NCBI RefSeq assembly: GCF_000964085.1
Contig: NZ_JZRB01000035.1
Coordinates: 1-64,000, forward strand
Origin: Luteibacter yeojuensis
GTDB lineage: Bacteria > Pseudomonadota > Gammaproteobacteria > Xanthomonadales > Rhodanobacteraceae
Length of the DNA: 64,000 bases
Direction: 5' to 3'
Position 1 is the first letter of the stretch. Every line of letters starts with the position of its first letter. The notes beneath the pieces are model-generated. The model was not told the DNA's origin, did not search any database, and worked only from the letters and a program-made list of their open reading frames with translations. The position numbers were made by a program, and so were the translations under genes. Below, in pieces: positions 2,288 to 57,967 of this stretch.

Positions 2288-2563
2288 ATGAACGATGACG
2301 TTGAATCGCGGGTGCTGGATATCGTCGCCAGGCAGAGCGGAAAAGACCGCGCCGCCGTTACCACCGAGACCACCCTGAAAGACCTCGGCGTCGACTCGCT
2401 CGAAGCCATCGAGATGGTGTTCGAGATCGAGGAAGCGTTTGGGGTCCAGCTCGCGGACGACCAGGCCCGCGATGGCACCGAGACGCTGCAGGGCCTCGTG
2501 GACGCCGTCCACATCGCCCTGGCCCATGCAGGGCACGCGGCCGGCCCCGCCCGGGCCGCCTGA
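2288..2563 (+). CDS. Acyl carrier protein
   Basis: This 91-residue acidic carrier protein has the phosphopantetheine attachment motif DSLEAIE at about residues 38-44, with the serine at about 39. It is preceded by a strong GGGAGG ribosome-binding site. Its length and the DLGVDS lead are typical of stand-alone ACPs. A ketosynthase follows 15 nt downstream, so the two probably form one transcription unit. The Ala/Pro-rich C-terminal tail is a little longer than in fatty-acid AcpP. The location outside a fab cluster suggests a dedicated carrier for a specialised acyl product rather than the housekeeping ACP. Confidence 0.93.
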   Translation: MNDDVESRVLDIVARQSGKDRAAVTTETTLKDLGVDSLEAIEMVFEIEEAFGVQLADDQARDGTETLQGLVDAVHIALAHAGHAAGPARAA

Positions 2564-2578
2564 CCACGCCACGGCGCC

Positions 2579-3811
2579 ATGCACGCCGTCGACCGCACGG
2601 CCATGCCCCGCGTGGTGGTCACAGGCATGGGCGCCATCAGCGCCCTTGGCCACGACGCCCATGCCCACTGGCGAGCGCTGCTGGCAGGCCAAAGCGGCAT
2701 CGCGGCCCTGGACCACCCACGGGCCGCCGAGCTGCGGGTAAAGATTGCCGCACAGGTGCGCGCCTTTGAACCGGCGCGGCATGTCGACGACCGCACGCTG
2801 CCCTTGCTGGATCGCGTCTCGCAGTTCGCCCTGCTAGCGGCGCGCGAAGCGGTCACGGCGGCCGGATGGGACCCCGAGACAACGCCCGGCCCACGCATCG
2901 CCGTGATCATCGGGACGGGCATTGGCGGCGAGACAAGCCGCGACGACGAATGCCGCAAGCTCTATGCGGAGGGCGCCGCGCGCGTGCACCCTTTCAGTAT
3001 CGTGCGGGCGATGGCCAGCGCGCCCGCCAGCCATGTCGCATCGGCATGCCATGCCATGGGCCCGGTGTTCGCGGTGACCAGCGCTTGTGCATCATCGAAC
3101 CATGCGATCGCGCAGGCCGTGCTCCTGCTTCGCGCCGGTGTCGTCGACGTGGCCGTCACCGGCGGCGCGGAGGCGTCCATGAGCTACAGCGTGCTGCGCG
3201 CGTGGGAAGCGATGCGCGTGCTGGCCGACGACACGTGCCGGCCGTTCTGTGCGCAACGCAAGGGCCTGGTGCTGGGCGAAGGCGCCGGCATGTTCGTGCT
3301 CGAATCGGCCACGCATGCCGCGGCACGCGGGGCCACGCCGCTGGCTGAGCTCGCCGGCATCGGCATGAGCTCCGACGCGGGCGATATCGTCGCGCCGTCG
3401 GCCGATGGTTCCGCGGCGGCGATGCGGGCCGCGCTGGCCGACGCCGGCATGCGCCCCAGCGATGTCGACCACATCAATGCCCACGGCACGGGCACGGTGG
3501 CCAACGACGTGACGGAAACACGCGCCATCCATGACGCCTTTGGCACCCACGCGGCGCGCATCGCCGTGACCTCCACCAAATCCATGCACGGGCACGCCCT
3601 CGGCGCCGCCGGTGCCCTTGAGCTTGTCGCTACCCTGGGCGCGCTGCGCGACGGCATCGTGCCGCCCACCGCCAACTTCCTCGACCGCGACGGGGCCTGC
3701 GATCTCGACATCGTGACAGGCGGCGCCCGGCGCATGGCCGTCCGCGCCGCCCTCTCGAACTCCTTCGCGTTCGGTGGCCTGAACGCCGTGCTGGCCGTGC
3801 GGCGCGCCTAA
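2579..3811 (+). CDS. Beta-ketoacyl-ACP synthase II-type condensing enzyme (FabF-like)
   Basis: This 410-residue thiolase-fold ketosynthase has the catalytic Cys in TSACASSNHA (about residue 170), the first His in HINAHGTGT and the second in KSMHGHALGAAGA. All active-site residues are present, so it should be active. FabF-type enzymes extend an acyl group with malonyl-ACP by decarboxylative condensation. It lies just downstream of a dedicated ACP, without ketoreductase, dehydratase or acyltransferase genes nearby, so it must borrow malonyl-ACP from fatty-acid synthesis. The ATG at 2603 (MPRVVVTG) is an equally possible start; neither has a clear ribosome-binding site. Its TAA stop overlaps the stop of the convergent ureohydrolase gene. 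Confidence 0.92.
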   Translation: MHAVDRTAMPRVVVTGMGAISALGHDAHAHWRALLAGQSGIAALDHPRAAELRVKIAAQVRAFEPARHVDDRTLPLLDRVSQFALLAAREAVTAAGWDPETTPGPRIAVIIGTGIGGETSRDDECRKLYAEGAARVHPFSIVRAMASAPASHVASACHAMGPVFAVTSACASSNHAIAQAVLLLRAGVVDVAVTGGAEASMSYSVLRAWEAMRVLADDTCRPFCAQRKGLVLGEGAGMFVLESATHAAARGATPLAELAGIGMSSDAGDIVAPSADGSAAAMRAALADAGMRPSDVDHINAHGTGTVANDVTETRAIHDAFGTHAARIAVTSTKSMHGHALGAAGALELVATLGALRDGIVPPTANFLDRDGACDLDIVTGGARRMAVRAALSNSFAFGGLNAVLAVRRA

Positions 3812-4683
3812 GCGGCGCTGCCACCATGGATGGCGTCGAGCAGCCGCAGGTTCAGCGCATGCTGCTGTGCCTGCCAGCCGGCCAGTTTGCCGGCATCGAC
3901 CTCGGGTTGCTCGTCCATCGCGCTGAGCTTGCGCTTCCACCAGCTACGGTAGGTGTAGCGCGAAATATCGCCGGTGATATCACTGCCCATGATGCGGCCG
4001 CGCAGGCTACGCAGGATGGCGAGGCCACCGGCCTCGGTCAGCGTGCCCTGGTCCCAGTTGGTCATGGCCACGTCGGGCGCGTAGGCATCCTTGTCGATGG
4101 AGAGGTACACCGGCTGGCCCGCGCGTGTCTGCGCATCGACGAAAGCATCGACCATGGCATGCGTATCGCTGAAGGAACGGAACGCACCCTGCAGGCCGAT
4201 CTTCGAGGCCCATGACGTATCCACGCCATTCGACCAGTACGTGAGCTTGCCGGCCCGCAGCGGCGCCAGGTAGTTTTCCCAGGCATGCCCGCGGCCGATG
4301 TCCGCGGACGTGATGCCGATGACATGCACATGGCTGACGCGCGGGAGCATGGCCACGCGCCGCACCCACGAGCCGCAGTGCACGCCGAACGGGAAGCGCA
4401 TGTTGTCGGGGTGGTTGTCGAGCACCACCACCTGGAACGCCTGCCTGCCCGGCACGCGCTCGACGAGCGGCCACGTGAGGTGGTGGAAATCGCCACTGCC
4501 GAGGAACACCGTGCCGTGCTCGCGCGGCAGCGAGGCATCGAGCATGTAGGCCAGCCGGCGCAGCTTGCCCAGCGAACAGCCGAAGCGGATGCGCTCCTCG
4601 TAGGCGCGCAGCGGCAACACCAGCCGCCCGGGAACGGGGCCGACGGAGCCGTCGAAATCAAGGACGATGGGTTGCGGCGTCAT
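3808..4683 (-). CDS. Arginase/ureohydrolase-fold protein
   Basis: This 291-residue protein has the di-metal motifs of ureohydrolases in order: GSGDFHHLT for the first His, LDNHPDN for the Asp/His/Asp cluster, and SIDKDAY for the final Asp pair. All six expected metal ligands appear present, so catalysis on a C-N bond, such as guanidino or amidine hydrolysis, is plausible. The sequence is divergent from arginase, agmatinase and formimidoylglutamase, so the substrate cannot be named. The start at MTPQPIVLDFDGS is preferred because upstream residues are not family-like. It overlaps the acyltransferase gene by 26 nt and sits last in the minus-strand part of the ACP/ketosynthase cluster. Confidence 0.8.
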   Translation of the reverse strand: MTPQPIVLDFDGSVGPVPGRLVLPLRAYEERIRFGCSLGKLRRLAYMLDASLPREHGTVFLGSGDFHHLTWPLVERVPGRQAFQVVVLDNHPDNMRFPFGVHCGSWVRRVAMLPRVSHVHVIGITSADIGRGHAWENYLAPLRAGKLTYWSNGVDTSWASKIGLQGAFRSFSDTHAMVDAFVDAQTRAGQPVYLSIDKDAYAPDVAMTNWDQGTLTEAGGLAILRSLRGRIMGSDITGDISRYTYRSWWKRKLSAMDEQPEVDAGKLAGWQAQQHALNLRLLDAIHGGSAA

Positions 4684-5722
4684 GGGCGGCCCATTCGCTG
4701 TCGGCTTCGAAATGGCGAGCGAACCGCGAGAGCACGGCGCGCAGCACGGGGTTGCGTAGGTAGACGGCATGGCGCGTCAGGTGGAACGATGCGCCCAGGC
4801 TCGCCTTCACCGCTGGATCGGTCCAGCCAGCGACGTAGTGCGTGAGCTGGCGCGCCAGGGCGTATTCCAGGTTCACGAACCAGCTGACGAAGTACAGGTC
4901 GAGCTCGCGCGCTTGCGGATAGGCAAAGCCCACGTACTTGTCGAGCAGCTTGCCGCCATGCTCGTAGCACAGGTTCCAGCCGACGAGCTGGCCCGCGTGC
5001 CGGTAGGTAAAAACCACCCCGCCAGGTTCACGCAGGGCGGCCGCGAAAAACGCGCGGGAAAGCTTGTCGAACTGCACCTCGCCCTGCGCATGCACGTTCT
5101 CGAAAAGGGCATAGAACGCATCGACGACGGCATCGCTGGCGAACGCCTCGCCGGTGCGCACAGTGGCGATCTCCAGCCGCGCACGGCTGCGCAACTTGCG
5201 TCGCAGGTTCTTCCGGCGCGAGTGCGAGAGCCGCGACAGGTACTCGTCGATGGACGCGAAATCGATGGCCACGTACGCCAGGGCCTGGCCTTCGACGATG
5301 ACATAGCCATGCTCGCGCGCCGCGTCCATGAACCGCCGCGTCCACGCCCGTTCCACGGCCGAGGTAAGCGGCGAGTCGACGGCAAGGTCTTTGACGATGA
5401 ACAACGGCTGCGTGCGCCCGTGGCAGCGGGCCCAGTCGGCGGCCACTTTCGCGGGCTGGCTGCCACCATGGAACAGTGCGTACTCCGACACCGTGGTGCC
5501 CGCGAAGCACGTGCGCACGCCCAGCAGCCGCTTCAACAGGGCCTGGAAGGGCAAGGCGGCCACGCGGCGGCGCAGGCCTTCGTCCGCCGTCGTGAGCACA
5601 TCGAAACGCGTGGTGAAAAGCGGAGCACCATCCACCGCCCGGGCTGGGGTGAACCCGTGGGGTGGATGGCGCTCGAAATGCCCGAGCAGCGCATCCGGCT
5701 CGAGCTGGTTCACGAACGCCAC
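4658..5722 (-). CDS. GNAT_6/BioF2-like acyltransferase
   Basis: This 354-residue protein has the signature of the GNAT_6 (CelD/BioF2, FemAB-like) acyltransferases. It carries the basic stretch SHSRRKNLRRKLRSRA at about residues 185-200, followed by a receiver fold with VFTYRHAGQLVGWNL and LDKYVGFAY. Such enzymes transfer acyl or aminoacyl groups to amines, and several occur in lipid or polysaccharide modification clusters. It lies between an aminotransferase gene (20 nt upstream) and a ureohydrolase gene (26-nt overlap), so the three are probably co-translated. A role in acylating an amine made by the aminotransferase, perhaps with the cluster's own ACP as donor, is inference. Confidence 0.8.
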   Translation of the reverse strand: MAFVNQLEPDALLGHFERHPPHGFTPARAVDGAPLFTTRFDVLTTADEGLRRRVAALPFQALLKRLLGVRTCFAGTTVSEYALFHGGSQPAKVAADWARCHGRTQPLFIVKDLAVDSPLTSAVERAWTRRFMDAAREHGYVIVEGQALAYVAIDFASIDEYLSRLSHSRRKNLRRKLRSRARLEIATVRTGEAFASDAVVDAFYALFENVHAQGEVQFDKLSRAFFAAALREPGGVVFTYRHAGQLVGWNLCYEHGGKLLDKYVGFAYPQARELDLYFVSWFVNLEYALARQLTHYVAGWTDPAVKASLGASFHLTRHAVYLRNPVLRAVLSRFARHFEADSEWAAHDAATHRP

Positions 5723-5742
5723 CGGCAGGCCAACCCGGTTTG

Positions 5743-7146
5743 TCAGCCGCGCTTGGCCAGCGTAAGCAGCTGGTCGAGCAACGCGATGGCCAGGTCGATT
5801 TCGTCGTGGCTGATGTCGAGCGACGGCGCGAACGTGATCACGTTCTTGTACCAGCCGCCCACATCAAGCACGAGACCGATCTTCTTGCCTTCGTGAGTCA
5901 GGCCGCCGGCCAGGCCGATGTCGACCATGCGATCAAGCAGCGCCTTGTTCGGCGTGAAACCATCGTCGGTGCAGATCTCGGCGCGCAGGGCGAGGCCAAG
6001 GCCATCGACATCACCGATTTCCTTGTGCCGCTTCTGCAGGTCGCGCAGGCCGTCAAGGAAGTGCCTGCCCTTCTCGGCCACCCGGGTTTCATAATCCAGC
6101 TCGTAACCCATCTGGATGACTTCCAGGCCAAGGGCGGTGCCCAGGGGGTTTGAGTTGAACGTGCTGTGCGTGGAGCCAGGCGGGAACACCGTGGGGTTGA
6201 TCAGCTCTTCGCGCGCCCAGATGCCCGATAACGGGTTCAGGCCGTTGGTAAGCGCCTTGCCGAACACGAGGACATCGGGCGTGACGCCGAAGTGCTCGAT
6301 CGACCAGAGCTTGCCGGTGCGCCAGAAGCCCATCTGGATCTCGTCCACGACCATGAGGATGCCGTACTTGTCGAGCACCTTCTTGAGGTCGATGAAGAAG
6401 TTCTTCGGCGGGATGACGTAACCGCCCGTGCCCTGGATGGGCTCGACATAGAACGCGGCGTACTCGGCCTCGCCCACTTTCGGATCCCACACGCCGTTGT
6501 ATTCGGTTTCGAACAGGCGCTCGAACTGGCGCACGCACGCGTCGGAGTATTCCTCCGGCGTCATGCCCTTCGGGCGGCGGAACGGGTAAGGGAACGGGAT
6601 GAACTGCGCACGCTCGCCAAAGTGGCCGAAGCGGCGGCGATAACGATAGCTCGAGGTGATGGACGATGCGCCCAGCGTGCGGCCGTGGTACCCGCCCTCG
6701 AAAGCGAACATGAGGCTCTTGCCGCCGCGCGCGTTGCGCACCAGCTTGAGCGAGTCTTCCACGGCCTGCGCGCCGCCCACGTTGAAGTGGCAGCGGCCAT
6801 CGAGGCCGAACTTCTTCTTCGCGTCGACGGCGATGGTCTTGGCGAGCTCGATCTTGCCCTGGTGCAGGTACTGGCTGGCCACCTGCGGCAGCAGGTCGAT
6901 CTGCGCCTTGAGCCGGTCGTTGAGGCGTTTGTTGCCGTAACCGAAGTTGACGGCCGAGTACCACATCTGCAGGTCGAGGAACGGGATGTTCTCGCTGTCG
7001 TAGATATAGCTTCCCTCCGCGTGGCGGAAGATCTTCGGCGGGTCGACGTAGTGCACGGTATCGCCGAACGAGCAGTACTTCGCTTCATCGGCCAGCAGCG
7101 CCGCGTCGTCGATGACGATATCGGGGGAAAGGGATTTCAGGTTCAT
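5743..7146 (-). CDS. Class III PLP-dependent aminotransferase
   Basis: This 467-residue fold-type I aminotransferase has the class III hallmarks: a Gly-rich cofactor region, AFEGGYHGRTLG, VVDEIQMGFWRTG with the cofactor-binding Asp, and FGKALTNGLNPLSG carrying the likely PLP lysine. The start at MNLKSLSP overlaps the upstream phosphatase stop by 4 nt (ATGA), which supports coupling. Reading further upstream gives Arg-rich sequence that is an out-of-frame copy of the phosphatase gene. Class III enzymes often act on omega- or beta-amino substrates, which would suit a beta-keto or aldehyde intermediate. The specific substrate is unknown. Confidence 0.88.
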   Translation of the reverse strand: MNLKSLSPDIVIDDAALLADEAKYCSFGDTVHYVDPPKIFRHAEGSYIYDSENIPFLDLQMWYSAVNFGYGNKRLNDRLKAQIDLLPQVASQYLHQGKIELAKTIAVDAKKKFGLDGRCHFNVGGAQAVEDSLKLVRNARGGKSLMFAFEGGYHGRTLGASSITSSYRYRRRFGHFGERAQFIPFPYPFRRPKGMTPEEYSDACVRQFERLFETEYNGVWDPKVGEAEYAAFYVEPIQGTGGYVIPPKNFFIDLKKVLDKYGILMVVDEIQMGFWRTGKLWSIEHFGVTPDVLVFGKALTNGLNPLSGIWAREELINPTVFPPGSTHSTFNSNPLGTALGLEVIQMGYELDYETRVAEKGRHFLDGLRDLQKRHKEIGDVDGLGLALRAEICTDDGFTPNKALLDRMVDIGLAGGLTHEGKKIGLVLDVGGWYKNVITFAPSLDISHDEIDLAIALLDQLLTLAKRG

Positions 7147-7859
7147 GCGGGCGTTTCCACGGTGTTCGGCACGGTAGTGGGCAGGACAGTCCTCGGCGGC
7201 AGGCCGCCGGCGAGCAGTTCGGGCAGCAGCGCCAGCGCTTCGTCGAAGCTGGCGATCGGCGCATACGGGATGCCGGCGGCGCGGCAGTGTTCTATAAGGC
7301 GGTTCTTCGCGAACACGAAGTCGACGCGATCGGCGGCGCAGAAATCGGAGGCGCCATCGCCAATGAGCAGCGTCTTGCCACCACGCTGCCGGGCCACGTC
7401 CACGCGCGCGCACTTGCAGGTGCCGCTGCGGCAGCCACGTGCACTGAACGGCGAGGTGAGTTTCCACTGGCGCGGGCCGGCCTGCTCGAGGTGGTTCGCC
7501 ACCGTGGGCAGCGTGTCGATGCCGTGGTTGGCGAGGATGGCGTGGATGGCGTGGTCAAGGCCATCGCTCACGATTTCAAGCGGTATGCCCTGCTCGATCG
7601 TCGCCCTCACGAAATCGGCGAAGCCGTGGTCGATGTGCAGGCGACCCAGGTGCGTCGCGAGTTCGTCGCGGCTCATGTCGAGCAACGCCACCTGGCCTGC
7701 CATGCACACGGCCGAACCGATGCGGCCCGCTCGCCAGTCGCGCTCCAGCACTTCCCAACCGGGGCGGCCATGGCGGTCGAGCAGCGAGTCGATGACGTCC
7801 TCCACGGCGATGGTGCCGTCGAAGTCGCAGAGGATGTTCCAGGCGGGCGTTGTATGCAC
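7143..7859 (-). CDS. HAD-IB phosphatase (MtnX/SerB-like)
   Basis: This 238-residue HAD-superfamily phosphatase has motif I DFDGTI with the nucleophilic Asp (about residue 12), motif II EIVSDGLD and motif III LIGDGASDF. It also has a Cys-containing stretch, CRSGTCKCA, typical of the MtnX-like/HAD-IB group. It is the first gene of the minus-strand operon and overlaps the aminotransferase by 4 nt. There is no methionine-salvage gene nearby, so MtnX function is unlikely. Removal of a phosphate from an intermediate of the cluster's pathway is more plausible, but unproven. Confidence 0.85.
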   Translation of the reverse strand: MHTTPAWNILCDFDGTIAVEDVIDSLLDRHGRPGWEVLERDWRAGRIGSAVCMAGQVALLDMSRDELATHLGRLHIDHGFADFVRATIEQGIPLEIVSDGLDHAIHAILANHGIDTLPTVANHLEQAGPRQWKLTSPFSARGCRSGTCKCARVDVARQRGGKTLLIGDGASDFCAADRVDFVFAKNRLIEHCRAAGIPYAPIASFDEALALLPELLAGGLPPRTVLPTTVPNTVETPA

Positions 7860-7991: not shown

Positions 7992-8756
7992 ATGCGCCGC
8001 ACATGCCTCGCCCTGCCCATCGCGCTCGCCCTTTGCCACGCCGCGCATGCCGAAGACGATACCCCCACCTATGCGTTCGGCGCGGGCGTGCAGCGCATGC
8101 CAGGGTGGCAGGGTTCGAAAAACACGCGCAACCAGCCGGTGCCCTACATCGACATCGAGCTGCCAGGCGTGGGCGAGCTTTCCACCACCGATGGCCTGAC
8201 GCTCGATGTCATCGGTGGCGCGCACTGGCACGGTGGTTTCTACGGAAACTGGTTGTGGGGCCGCACGCATGATGAACTCGGGCCGCGCCTTGGCGGCAAG
8301 GTGGCGTCGCTTTCGCCGCGCTGGCAGGGCGGTGGTTACCTCGAGTACGCGTTCAACGAGCGTTTCAGCCTTGGCGGCCACCTCGCGCACGACACCGCTG
8401 GCGCGGGCGCGTATGCCGCGCTGTATGCCGACTGGAAGCTACCCGACGTGTGGTACATCCAGCACTCGCTGGAACTGCAGGTGGAAGGCATGAACGGCGC
8501 GGGCATGGACCGGTTCTTCGGCGTCACGCCGGCCGAGGCGCAGGCCATCGGCACGGCGCCGTACCAGCCCGGCGCCGGCTGGCATTCCGCCAACCTCGAA
8601 TATGACGCTTTCGTGCCGACGTCGTTGCATACCGGTTTCGCGTTGGCGCTTTCGTACGCGCGGCTGTATGGCAACGCGGCAGGCAGCCCGCTCGTGCGCG
8701 AATTCGGCTCACGCCGCCAGCCGACCACCACGCTGGCGTTCGTGGTCCACTTCTAG
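7992..8756 (+). CDS. MipA/OmpV family outer-membrane protein
   Basis: This 254-residue protein has a cleavable Sec signal peptide (about residues 1-20, ending CHAAHA). The mature part has the MipA/OmpV pattern of alternating amphipathic strands: YAFGAGVQRMPGWQGS at the mature start, repeated GG-Y/F turns, and a terminal aromatic strand ending FVVHF, as expected for an outer-membrane barrel. MipA was described as a scaffold for murein enzymes in E. coli, while many relatives behave as stress- or surface-related porin-like proteins. It is a single gene facing away from the phosphatase operon and convergent with the CPBP protease gene 13 nt away. Confidence 0.85.
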   Translation: MRRTCLALPIALALCHAAHAEDDTPTYAFGAGVQRMPGWQGSKNTRNQPVPYIDIELPGVGELSTTDGLTLDVIGGAHWHGGFYGNWLWGRTHDELGPRLGGKVASLSPRWQGGGYLEYAFNERFSLGGHLAHDTAGAGAYAALYADWKLPDVWYIQHSLELQVEGMNGAGMDRFFGVTPAEAQAIGTAPYQPGAGWHSANLEYDAFVPTSLHTGFALALSYARLYGNAAGSPLVREFGSRRQPTTTLAFVVHF

Positions 8757-56623: not shown

Positions 56624-57967
56624 ATGACCGACGCCTTTGTAGCCCGCGACCTCTCCGTCCTCTGGCACCCGTGCACCCAGATGCACGACCACGAAACCCT
56701 CCCCATGGTACCTGTCGCGCGTGGCGAAGGGGCATGGCTGGTCGGCACCGATGGCCAGCGCTACCTCGATGCCGTGAGTTCGTGGTGGACCAACCTGTTC
56801 GGCCATGCGGAGCCACGCATCGCCGGCGCCCTGAAGGACCAGCTCGACCGCCTCGAACACGTCATCTTCGCCGGCTTCACCCATGAACCGGCCGTGGAGC
56901 TGGCCGAGGAACTGGTGCGCATCACGCCGCCCGGCCTCGAGCGCGTGTTCCTGGCCGATAACGGTTCGGCCGCCATCGAGGTGGCGCTGAAGATGAGCTT
57001 CCACTACTGGCTCAACCGCGGCCACGGCGAGAAAACCCGTTTCATCGCGCTCACCGGCAGCTACCACGGCGAGACGCTGGGGGCGCTCTCGGTCAGCGAC
57101 GTGGCCCTGTACCGCAAGACGTACGCCCCGTTGCTGCTCACGCCGACGCTGGCGCCCTCGCCCGATGCCTACGAAGGCGAACCCGGCGAAACGCCCGGGG
57201 AAACCGCCACGCGCCGCCTCGGCGAGATGCGCGCGATCCTCGAGCGCCATGCGCATGAAACCTGCGCCGTCATCGTCGAGCCACTCGTGCAGTGCGCCGG
57301 TGGCATGCGCATGTACCACCCGTCGTACCTCACGGGCCTGCGCGCGTTGTGCGACGAATTCAACGTGCACTTCATCGCCGACGAGATCGCCGTGGGCTTC
57401 GGCCGCACGGGCACGCTGTTCGCATGCGAGCAGGCTGGCGTATCGCCCGATTTCATGTGCCTGTCGAAGGGCCTCACCGGCGGCTTCCTGCCGCTGTCGG
57501 CCGTGGTCACCACGCAGGACGTGTACCAGGCGTTCTACGCCGAATACGCGGCGGGCAAGGCCTTCCTGCATTCGCACAGCTACACGGGCAACCCGCTGGC
57601 ATGCCGCGCCGCGACGGCCACGCTGGCGATCTTCCGCGACGACCCGGTGCTCGAACGCAACCGCGAGCTCGCCGCGCACATGGCGGCGCGCATCGCGCCG
57701 CTGCGCGACCACCCGCATGTGGCCGACGTGCGCCAGACAGGCATGATCGCCGCCATCGAGCTGGTGGCCGACAAGGCCACCCGCACGCCCTTCCCCGCCG
57801 GCGACCGCCGCGGCATGCGCGTGTACCGCCATGGGCTGGAGAACGGCGCGCTGCTGCGGCCGCTGGGCAACATCGTCTATTTCATGCCGCCCTATGTGAT
57901 CCGCGAGGACGAGATCGATTTCATGGTCGATACGGCCATCGCCGGTATCGCGAAGGCCGTGGCCTAG
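56624..57967 (+). CDS. bioA: Adenosylmethionine-8-amino-7-oxononanoate aminotransferase
   Basis: This 447-residue class III aminotransferase has LWHPCTQMHDHET, the BioA-specific N-terminal motif, YHGETLGALSVSD, FIADEIAVGFGRTG, and PLP lysine in LSKGLTGGFLPLS. It makes 7,8-diaminopelargonate for biotin, using SAM as amino donor. It starts at MTDAFVARDL. The stop overlaps the convergent isomerase stop as CTAG. bioB, bioF and bioD are not in the window. Confidence 0.95.
   Translation: MTDAFVARDLSVLWHPCTQMHDHETLPMVPVARGEGAWLVGTDGQRYLDAVSSWWTNLFGHAEPRIAGALKDQLDRLEHVIFAGFTHEPAVELAEELVRITPPGLERVFLADNGSAAIEVALKMSFHYWLNRGHGEKTRFIALTGSYHGETLGALSVSDVALYRKTYAPLLLTPTLAPSPDAYEGEPGETPGETATRRLGEMRAILERHAHETCAVIVEPLVQCAGGMRMYHPSYLTGLRALCDEFNVHFIADEIAVGFGRTGTLFACEQAGVSPDFMCLSKGLTGGFLPLSAVVTTQDVYQAFYAEYAAGKAFLHSHSYTGNPLACRAATATLAIFRDDPVLERNRELAAHMAARIAPLRDHPHVADVRQTGMIAAIELVADKATRTPFPAGDRRGMRVYRHGLENGALLRPLGNIVYFMPPYVIREDEIDFMVDTAIAGIAKAVA

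Follow-up and report, generated by a model that had tools for sequence, protein, structure and literature searches.

A recurrent gene set in Luteibacter and other Proteobacteria with a possible role in making an envelope aminolipid

Several described bacterial systems resemble a gene set that we examined in Luteibacter yeojuensis. Six of its genes lie at 2288–7859 (the study locus) of a 64,000-nt stretch of contig NZ_JZRB01000035.1, the full length of which is called the window here. They encode an acyl carrier protein (ACP), a ketosynthase (KS), a ureohydrolase-fold enzyme, a tandem-GNAT transferase, a class III pyridoxal phosphate (PLP) aminotransferase (AT3) and a HAD phosphatase. Among the described systems, the Arn pathway (ArnBCADTEF) adds 4-amino-4-deoxy-L-arabinose (L-Ara4N) to lipid A, and lpiA-atvA joins an MprF-type synthase to a hydrolase partner. 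The bacterial ceramide operon of Caulobacter consists of spt, bCerS and an ACP gene, and the accessory set of exosortase A (XrtA) includes a FemAB protein, an ACP and hydrolases. One study of Pseudomonas aeruginosa reports that MipA, which binds polymyxin, acts together with ParRS and that a two-component system lies directly upstream or downstream in most mipA loci (PMC10936184).

Like the Arn pathway, the set contains a DegT/ArnB-superfamily aminotransferase, paired EamA half transporters for which ArnE or ArnF was the best NCBIfam match in all four proteins tested, and PmrAB/QseBC-like regulators; in one relative, Roseomonas, DegT lies within the set and adjoins an undecaprenyl-diphosphate phosphatase (UppP). 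The half-transporter scores, however, fall far under the ArnE/F cut-offs, and the ACP, KS, GNAT, ureohydrolase and desaturase of the set are without Arn counterparts. MprF (aminoacyl-phosphatidylglycerol synthase) shares with the set a tandem-GNAT transferase fold, an alpha/beta hydrolase partner and a flippase function, but the GNAT protein of the set lacks both PF09924 (the MprF domain) and a fused membrane domain, and the set has extra PLP, phosphatase and ureohydrolase steps. The ceramide operon is alike in having an ACP and an N-acyltransferase, which would turn an amine into a lipid by acylation; it differs in that the amine of our set would come from a class III or glutamate-1-semialdehyde aminomutase (GSAM)-type aminotransferase plus the HAD enzyme. 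A FemAB-like protein, an ACP and an alpha/beta hydrolase also occur together in the XrtA accessory set, and our hydrolase has a weak match to TIGR03101 (26 bits, far below the curated cut-off of 203). In eight plasmid regions, the gene tables of which are incomplete, no ArnA, ArnC, ArnD or ArnT and no serine palmitoyltransferase (Spt) was annotated, genomes not having been searched for either group, and no exosortase was annotated there. The mipBA-ParRS locus is similar in that a MipA barrel adjoins a two-component system, but it controls an RND pump, and its main text mentions neither EamA nor an aminotransferase (PMC10936184). Judging by sequence, we would place the set among envelope lipid modification operons, with members that, on curated models, fall outside the ArnE/F, MprF and FabF-equivalog families.

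The core of the recurrent set is a HAD phosphatase, a PLP aminotransferase, the ureohydrolase, an alpha/beta hydrolase, a transferase of FemX/MprF fold (the GNAT protein) and two ArnE/ArnF-like half transporters, and genes for a two-component system often adjoin it. DegT, ACP-KS, a fatty acid desaturase, a cyclopropane synthase, an ABC exporter and MipA are add-ons. The six genes of the study locus would then form half of an envelope-lipid set, which in this genome is split into two pieces. Our favored reading, which we hold with slightly less than even confidence, is that the operon makes, flips and trims an acylated amine (an aminolipid).

Recurrence of the neighborhood was assessed in 80 named loci that were collected through ureohydrolase alignment, with neighbors identified by tblastn/blastp and Pfam. 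Gene calls in these loci came from a simple ORF caller that misplaced starts and fused or missed some genes; loci L236–L253 were remapped by tblastn, independently of that caller. Taxon labels were inferred from named relatives (f1, Rhodanobacteraceae; f2, Xanthomonadaceae; g1, Luteibacter; g302, Xanthomonas; f161, Pseudomonas; f219, an alphaproteobacterium). The GNAT gene lay beside the ureohydrolase gene in all 80 loci. KS and ACP were each found in 68, and in the other 12, some of them incomplete, neither was seen. DegT was present in 63 loci, the alpha/beta hydrolase in 62, the EamA half transporters in 61, and HAD and AT3 in 51 each, two further AT3 matches (23–27% identity) having been left out as another PLP family. 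An ABC permease (35/80), an outer-membrane channel (34/80) and MipA (29/80) were less frequent. All of these counts are lower bounds, many loci ending at a contig end or at the 10-kb flank. Unrelated neighbors from the window were scarce in the same loci: YeiH in 5, LysR in 6 (one of these a 26% match) and a CAAX protease in 9.

Gene order and orientation varied among genera. In the window the ACP-KS pair points toward the ureohydrolase gene, whereas Rhodanobacter and Frateuria have it between AT3 and GNAT, on the opposite strand in the former and on the same strand in the latter. Because the families recurred in changed order, a shared function is suggested, and a chance neighborhood was rejected on the basis of order-shuffled recurrence and co-loss. 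MipA adjoined the set in three f161 loci and was annotated in Rhizobium BG4 and Phyllobacterium; it is likely to be associated with the gene set. In named Luteibacter loci the ureohydrolase was up to 72–75% identical to that of the window, and the flanking genes were the same.

Co-inheritance was examined in the 197 genomes of the family set. Limits for presence were E 4e-60 or better for the main-type ureohydrolase, 1e-40 for DegT, 1e-150 for AT3 and 1e-110 for KS, and the lists were transcribed by hand. The main-type ureohydrolase occurred in 110 genomes, a divergent type in 25, and DegT in 118. Both main-type ureohydrolase and DegT were found in 108 genomes, ureohydrolase alone in 2, DegT alone in 10 and neither in 77 (Fisher p 1e-40, shared ancestry ignored). 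One of the two ureohydrolase-only genomes has DegT cut at a contig end (G001, locus L085) and the other (G182) is 87% complete; all ten DegT-only genomes belong to genus g25. Among the 19 genomes of the window's genus, eight had ureohydrolase, DegT, AT3 and KS, eight had the first three without KS, and three kept AT3 without the other three; in the one genome inspected of these last three (L102), HAD adjoins AT3. On this pattern of presence, therefore, ureohydrolase goes with DegT, KS can be dispensed with, and AT3 persists most often within the genus. In a divergent lineage of the family, ureohydrolase (~32–35%), EamA, hydrolase, GNAT (~30%), EamA, ACP and KS form a compact run (L088, L089, L107); in two further loci of that lineage (L222, L223) the run is shorter, and neither ureohydrolase nor GNAT was labeled in it.

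The second piece in the window's genome lies on another contig (C83, locus L096), as one minus-strand run of response regulator, histidine kinase, hydrolase, EamA, EamA and DegT. Its kinase, next to the hydrolase, is QseC/PmrB-like and its regulator PmrA/TctD-like, all scores being below the curated cut-offs; Roseomonas and Aureimonas have a regulator of sigma-54 type. In Rhodanobacter, Frateuria and some Dyella the whole set is contiguous, spanning 12.6–13.1 kb in four loci (L070, L071, L074, L113), and comprises HAD, AT3, ACP, KS, GNAT, ureohydrolase, DegT, EamA, EamA, alpha/beta hydrolase and an ABC exporter with an outer-membrane channel. Xanthomonas sacchari has the same set, nearly contiguous, as far as the fetched region extends. 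In the 16 genomes of the window's genus that have both halves, ureohydrolase and DegT were 40–55 kb apart in nine, 120 kb apart in one, side by side in three and on different contigs in three, the window's genome included. Both genes are thus retained in 13 of the 16 although they are at least 40 kb apart or on separate contigs.

Outside the family, the ureohydrolase was found in 19 of 149 genomes of the next family (inferred to be Xanthomonadaceae), five of them with divergent copies. A phylum sample of 398 genomes gave 19 matches. Of these, 6 lay within the order, 8 came from two other families of gammaproteobacteria and 2 from another class, and the remaining 3 were weak (E 2e-4 to 5e-4). 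We inspected the ten strong loci outside the order. The four loci of family f108 carry AT3, GNAT, ureohydrolase and DegT, plus half transporters, hydrolase and HAD where the contig continues, and three f161 loci carry ureohydrolase, EamA, HAD, AT3, hydrolase, GNAT and MipA. Locus L240 has GNAT, ureohydrolase and two half transporters only. Locus L244 reads HAD-AT3-ureohydrolase-EamA-hydrolase-GNAT-EamA-sensor kinase-regulator, and L245 is the same up to its contig end.

The set also occurs on plasmids. In a collection of 72,556 plasmid records, AT3 was found in 34 (E 1e-120): 16 from Rhizobium, 10 from Agrobacterium, 5 from Bartonella and 1 each from Xanthomonas, Sinorhizobium and Phyllobacterium. 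A rhizobial GNAT as query gave 41 records, 11 of them from Roseomonas. In Rhizobium CIAT894 and Phyllobacterium the operon consists of a two-component system, HAD, AT3, arginase, EamA, desaturase, hydrolase, GNAT, EamA and cyclopropane synthase, the Rhizobium proteins matching FA_desaturase (PF00487, 100 bits) and CMAS (PF02353, 303 bits). In Agrobacterium fabrum the order is HAD-AT3-arginase-EamA-hydrolase-GNAT-EamA, and TolC and an ABC exporter come next. Rhizobium, Agrobacterium, Phyllobacterium and Aureimonas have compact operons that lack KS, ACP and DegT. The exception is the plasmid of Bartonella sp. HY328 (L249), which has AT3 (80%), GNAT and ureohydrolase only. On this plasmid, from a bat-associated Bartonella, an MBOAT acyltransferase lies two genes further on. 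KS and ACP were absent from 17 of the 18 loci outside the family (L236–L253), being present only in Xanthomonas sacchari.

These results bear on an earlier note, made from the window alone, that had read the six genes as a joint pathway and had proposed a search for conserved neighbors. The note would have counted a lack of conserved neighbors as a refutation; the neighbors proved to be conserved, recurring throughout the family as well as in some Xanthomonadaceae and other gammaproteobacteria and on plasmids, and recurrence and co-inheritance favor a joint pathway. Its extent was drawn too narrowly: DegT, two EamA proteins, the hydrolase and the two-component system are on the other contig, and MipA lies beside HAD. 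The emphasis on ACP-KS did not hold, given the eight of 19 genus genomes that keep ureohydrolase, DegT and AT3 without KS and the 17 of 18 outside loci lacking both; ACP-KS is an option and not the center of the set. The statement that no named pathway has these genes agrees with our literature searches, which found no published description of the gene set, with subscription papers mostly outside their coverage. Nor was a known product for it found in the literature on the gene set or on lipid, rhizobial, polymyxin and flippase leads.

From gene content, co-inheritance, intact active sites and folds, we infer substrates, reaction order, product, donor and trigger as follows. AT3 and HAD would convert a phosphorylated keto or aldehyde precursor to a small amino compound by amino transfer and dephosphorylation, which fits the adjacency of the two genes in most loci seen. 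The FemX/MprF-fold GNAT would then link the amino compound by an amide to an acyl or aminoacyl group, the acyl source being ACP where ACP-KS occurs and otherwise a housekeeping carrier. Next, the ureohydrolase-fold enzyme and the alpha/beta hydrolase would trim the conjugate or release its amine. The two half transporters, the presence of which suggests transfer across the inner membrane, would flip the conjugate over that membrane, with an ABC/TolC exporter carrying it onward in some species. Tailoring by KS, DegT, desaturase or cyclopropane synthase would be specific to lineages. A fatty chain is suggested because rhizobia have the desaturase and cyclopropane synthase and Xanthomonadales have ACP-KS. 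A two-component system, sometimes with MipA, probably turns the set on under envelope stress, as the findings on MipA and ParRS in P. aeruginosa suggest. The product had earlier been described as probably a short amine-containing acyl compound. An amine and an acyl chain are still probable; a short soluble compound is less so, because a membrane lipid is indicated by the desaturase, the cyclopropane synthase, the ArnE/ArnF-like half transporters and the ABC exporter that part of the family has. Wider, and more doubtful, is the proposal that the set stands for a class of envelope aminolipid pathway that is horizontally mobile among Proteobacteria and as yet undescribed, in which a class III or GSAM aminotransferase and HAD make the head group, joined by a FemX-fold transferase, a ureohydrolase-fold maturation enzyme, an ArnEF-like flippase and an envelope-stress two-component switch with MipA.

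A number of observations weigh against an envelope aminolipid. The exporter permease of relatives was not found in the window's genome, a search with the permease only giving one 28% match. Of the 16 genomes of the genus that carry the core, 8 have no KS. A single unit is opposed by the absence of a close AT3 from 17 of the 110 family genomes with ureohydrolase and by genus g17, which has AT3-HAD-exporter and hydrolase-EamA-ACP-KS without ureohydrolase and DegT. The persistence of AT3 without ureohydrolase, DegT and KS suggests that it may have a separate function, and AT3 and HAD are apart in L181 and in three f108 loci (L237–L239). The best half-transporter scores for ArnE/ArnF were 33.8 and 26.1 bits, below the cut-offs of 92 and 99. 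Enzymes with the tandem-GNAT fold include users of acyl, aminoacyl and acetyl donors, and a ureohydrolase has no obvious role in making a lipid. Lastly, a separate MprF-type lysylphosphatidylglycerol (LPG) synthase is encoded in the window's genome (G000:C54:9754-10614; PF09924 E 8e-97, open frame of 997 aa), which led us to reject the set as a plain replacement for MprF; PF09924 scored above cut-off in 147 of the 197 family genomes, the window's included.

Three other explanations were weighed against the aminolipid. Closest to the earlier view is a small natural product that is secreted, either an acylated amine or a compound derived from guanidine, for which KS-ACP would set the acyl chain, AT3, HAD, DegT and ureohydrolase would build the amine, and the ABC/TolC pump would secrete it. 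Many relatives do have a tripartite ABC exporter with an outer-membrane channel, the distribution is patchy and plasmid-borne as for secondary-metabolite clusters, and ACP-KS occurs in 68 of 80 loci. We nevertheless consider this explanation unlikely: the window's genome gave no exporter permease, 17 of 18 loci outside the family are without KS-ACP and half of the genus genomes with the core are without KS, the acyl chain is more likely to be a membrane one given the desaturase and cyclopropane synthase, and the constraint on AT3 (96–98% amino acid identity vs 62–73% at fourfold sites) is unusually strong for secondary metabolism. Somewhat less probable still is aminoacyl-tRNA-dependent lipid aminoacylation by a split counterpart of MprF, in which the GNAT would transfer an amino acid, the half transporters would flip the lipid and the alpha/beta hydrolase would remove the amino acid, the ureohydrolase converting an arginyl to an ornithyl head group. 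The GNAT has a tandem-GNAT fold whose best structural matches, Sbb17, the MprF C-domain and FemX, are all aminoacyl-tRNA-dependent, and the transferase-hydrolase pair resembles lpiA/atvA. Given this fold, the GNAT donor may be aminoacyl-tRNA as well as acyl-ACP; the earlier family assignment was sound, and the reading as an acyltransferase too narrow.

The set could also be a meeting of two or three independent modules that are merely adjacent, namely AT3-HAD(-exporter), hydrolase-EamA-EamA(-ACP-KS) and ureohydrolase-GNAT-DegT. In genus g17 the AT3-HAD-exporter and hydrolase-EamA-ACP-KS groups lie at separate places (three and four genomes inspected, respectively); the three genus genomes with AT3 but without ureohydrolase, DegT and KS, and the 17 of 110 ureohydrolase genomes without a close AT3, are also consistent with modules. 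We judge this explanation improbable, as a distant class has single operons with all core members (one with GSAM for AT3), and in two Dokdonella loci HAD adjoins a GSAM-family (HemL-family) enzyme in place of AT3 (L168:18812-20200, L176:18224-19612). The same replacement was seen in other, separate lineages, Roseomonas and Aureimonas (L251, L252). If the aminolipid reading is true, a membrane amine of undescribed chemistry and role would be common to many Proteobacteria of plants and soil, such as Luteibacter, Rhodanobacter, Dyella, Rhizobium, Agrobacterium and Xanthomonas sacchari, as well as to Roseomonas, and some of these carry the genes on plasmids. A ureohydrolase-fold enzyme would gain a place in lipid metabolism, and there would be a tractable gene set to connect unidentified aminolipids with genes.

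Table 1. Genes of the study locus and the adjoining MipA gene, in window coordinates.
Feature	Position	Strand	Family evidence
Acyl carrier protein (ACP), 91 aa	2288-2563	+	PF00550 48.2 bits
FabF-type ketosynthase (KS), 410 aa	2579-3811	+	Pfam ketoacyl-synt N and C
Ureohydrolase-fold metal hydrolase, 291 aa	3808-4683	-	Pfam Arginase 28.9 bits, cut-off 22
Tandem-GNAT transferase, 354 aa	4658-5722	-	Pfam FemAB_like and Acetyltransf_6
Class III PLP aminotransferase (AT3), 467 aa	5743-7146	-	PF00202 237 bits
MtnX-like HAD-IB phosphatase, 238 aa	7143-7859	-	TIGR01489 85.8 bits, cut-off 81.6
MipA/OmpV outer-membrane barrel	7992-8756	+	PF06629 84.6 bits; divergent from HAD

All six open reading frames named earlier are present, and Pfam agrees on the family of each (Table 1). 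The KS could also start at 2603, and the ureohydrolase start at 4683 was picked by the analyst, the mechanical ORF start being 4770. As had been described, the KS and ureohydrolase stop codons overlap: TAA at 3809–3811 shares two bases with TAG at 3808–3810 on the opposite strand. The minus-strand genes are separated by a 4-nt overlap (HAD/AT3), a 20-nt gap (AT3/GNAT) and a 26-nt overlap (GNAT/ureohydrolase), distances consistent with coupled genes. The catalytic motifs, also reported as intact, were confirmed and are conserved in orthologues. They comprise the ACP phosphopantetheine Ser37 (3 sequences compared), KS C170/H302/K334/H339, the ureohydrolase metal-ligand motifs (H, DxHxD, DxD), the AT3 Schiff-base lysine K297 (invariant in 86 sequences) and HAD D12/D14. 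Residue numbers were counted by hand, and the conservation sets, of 86 to 107 sequences, contain some loci twice.

Assignments below the level of family varied among the proteins. The ACP scored below every listed NCBIfam ACP cut-off, and no NCBIfam model was listed for the GNAT. The KS belongs to the NCBIfam subfamily PRK07314 (412 bits vs a cut-off of 387), and its assignment as a fabF equivalog was rejected (TIGR03150, 420.9 bits, below the cut-off of 493.75). PF00491 and the binuclear metal ligands place the ureohydrolase in its superfamily; an agmatinase or arginase with a known guanidino substrate was not supported by curated scores, only TIGR01230 (agmatinase) being listed at 16.3 bits vs 174, and by sequence there was no convincing PDB relative (best E 0.66). 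The HAD phosphatase matched 2fea in the PDB (E 5e-16).

PF00202 places AT3 in class III. In GABA-AT/OAT-type class III aminotransferases, a C-terminal Arg binds the substrate carboxylate. AT3 has Thr438, invariant in 86 sequences, where 7vno and 9wqz have Arg, and an omega-amino acid type enzyme (GABA-AT, OAT) was rejected on this replacement. AT3 was 96–98% identical in six close relatives with fourfold sites just 62–73% identical; in the same relatives KS, GNAT and ureohydrolase, where present, were 72–81% identical (fourfold sites 43–64%). Recent transfer was rejected as the source of the AT3 identity, its fourfold sites being 60–73% identical in eight relatives vs 33–68% in the other five genes. 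The conservation of AT3 mainly reflects strong purifying selection and not recent exchange; some codon bias may add to it. The window contains a second class III aminotransferase at 56717–57925, which is 29% identical to AT3.

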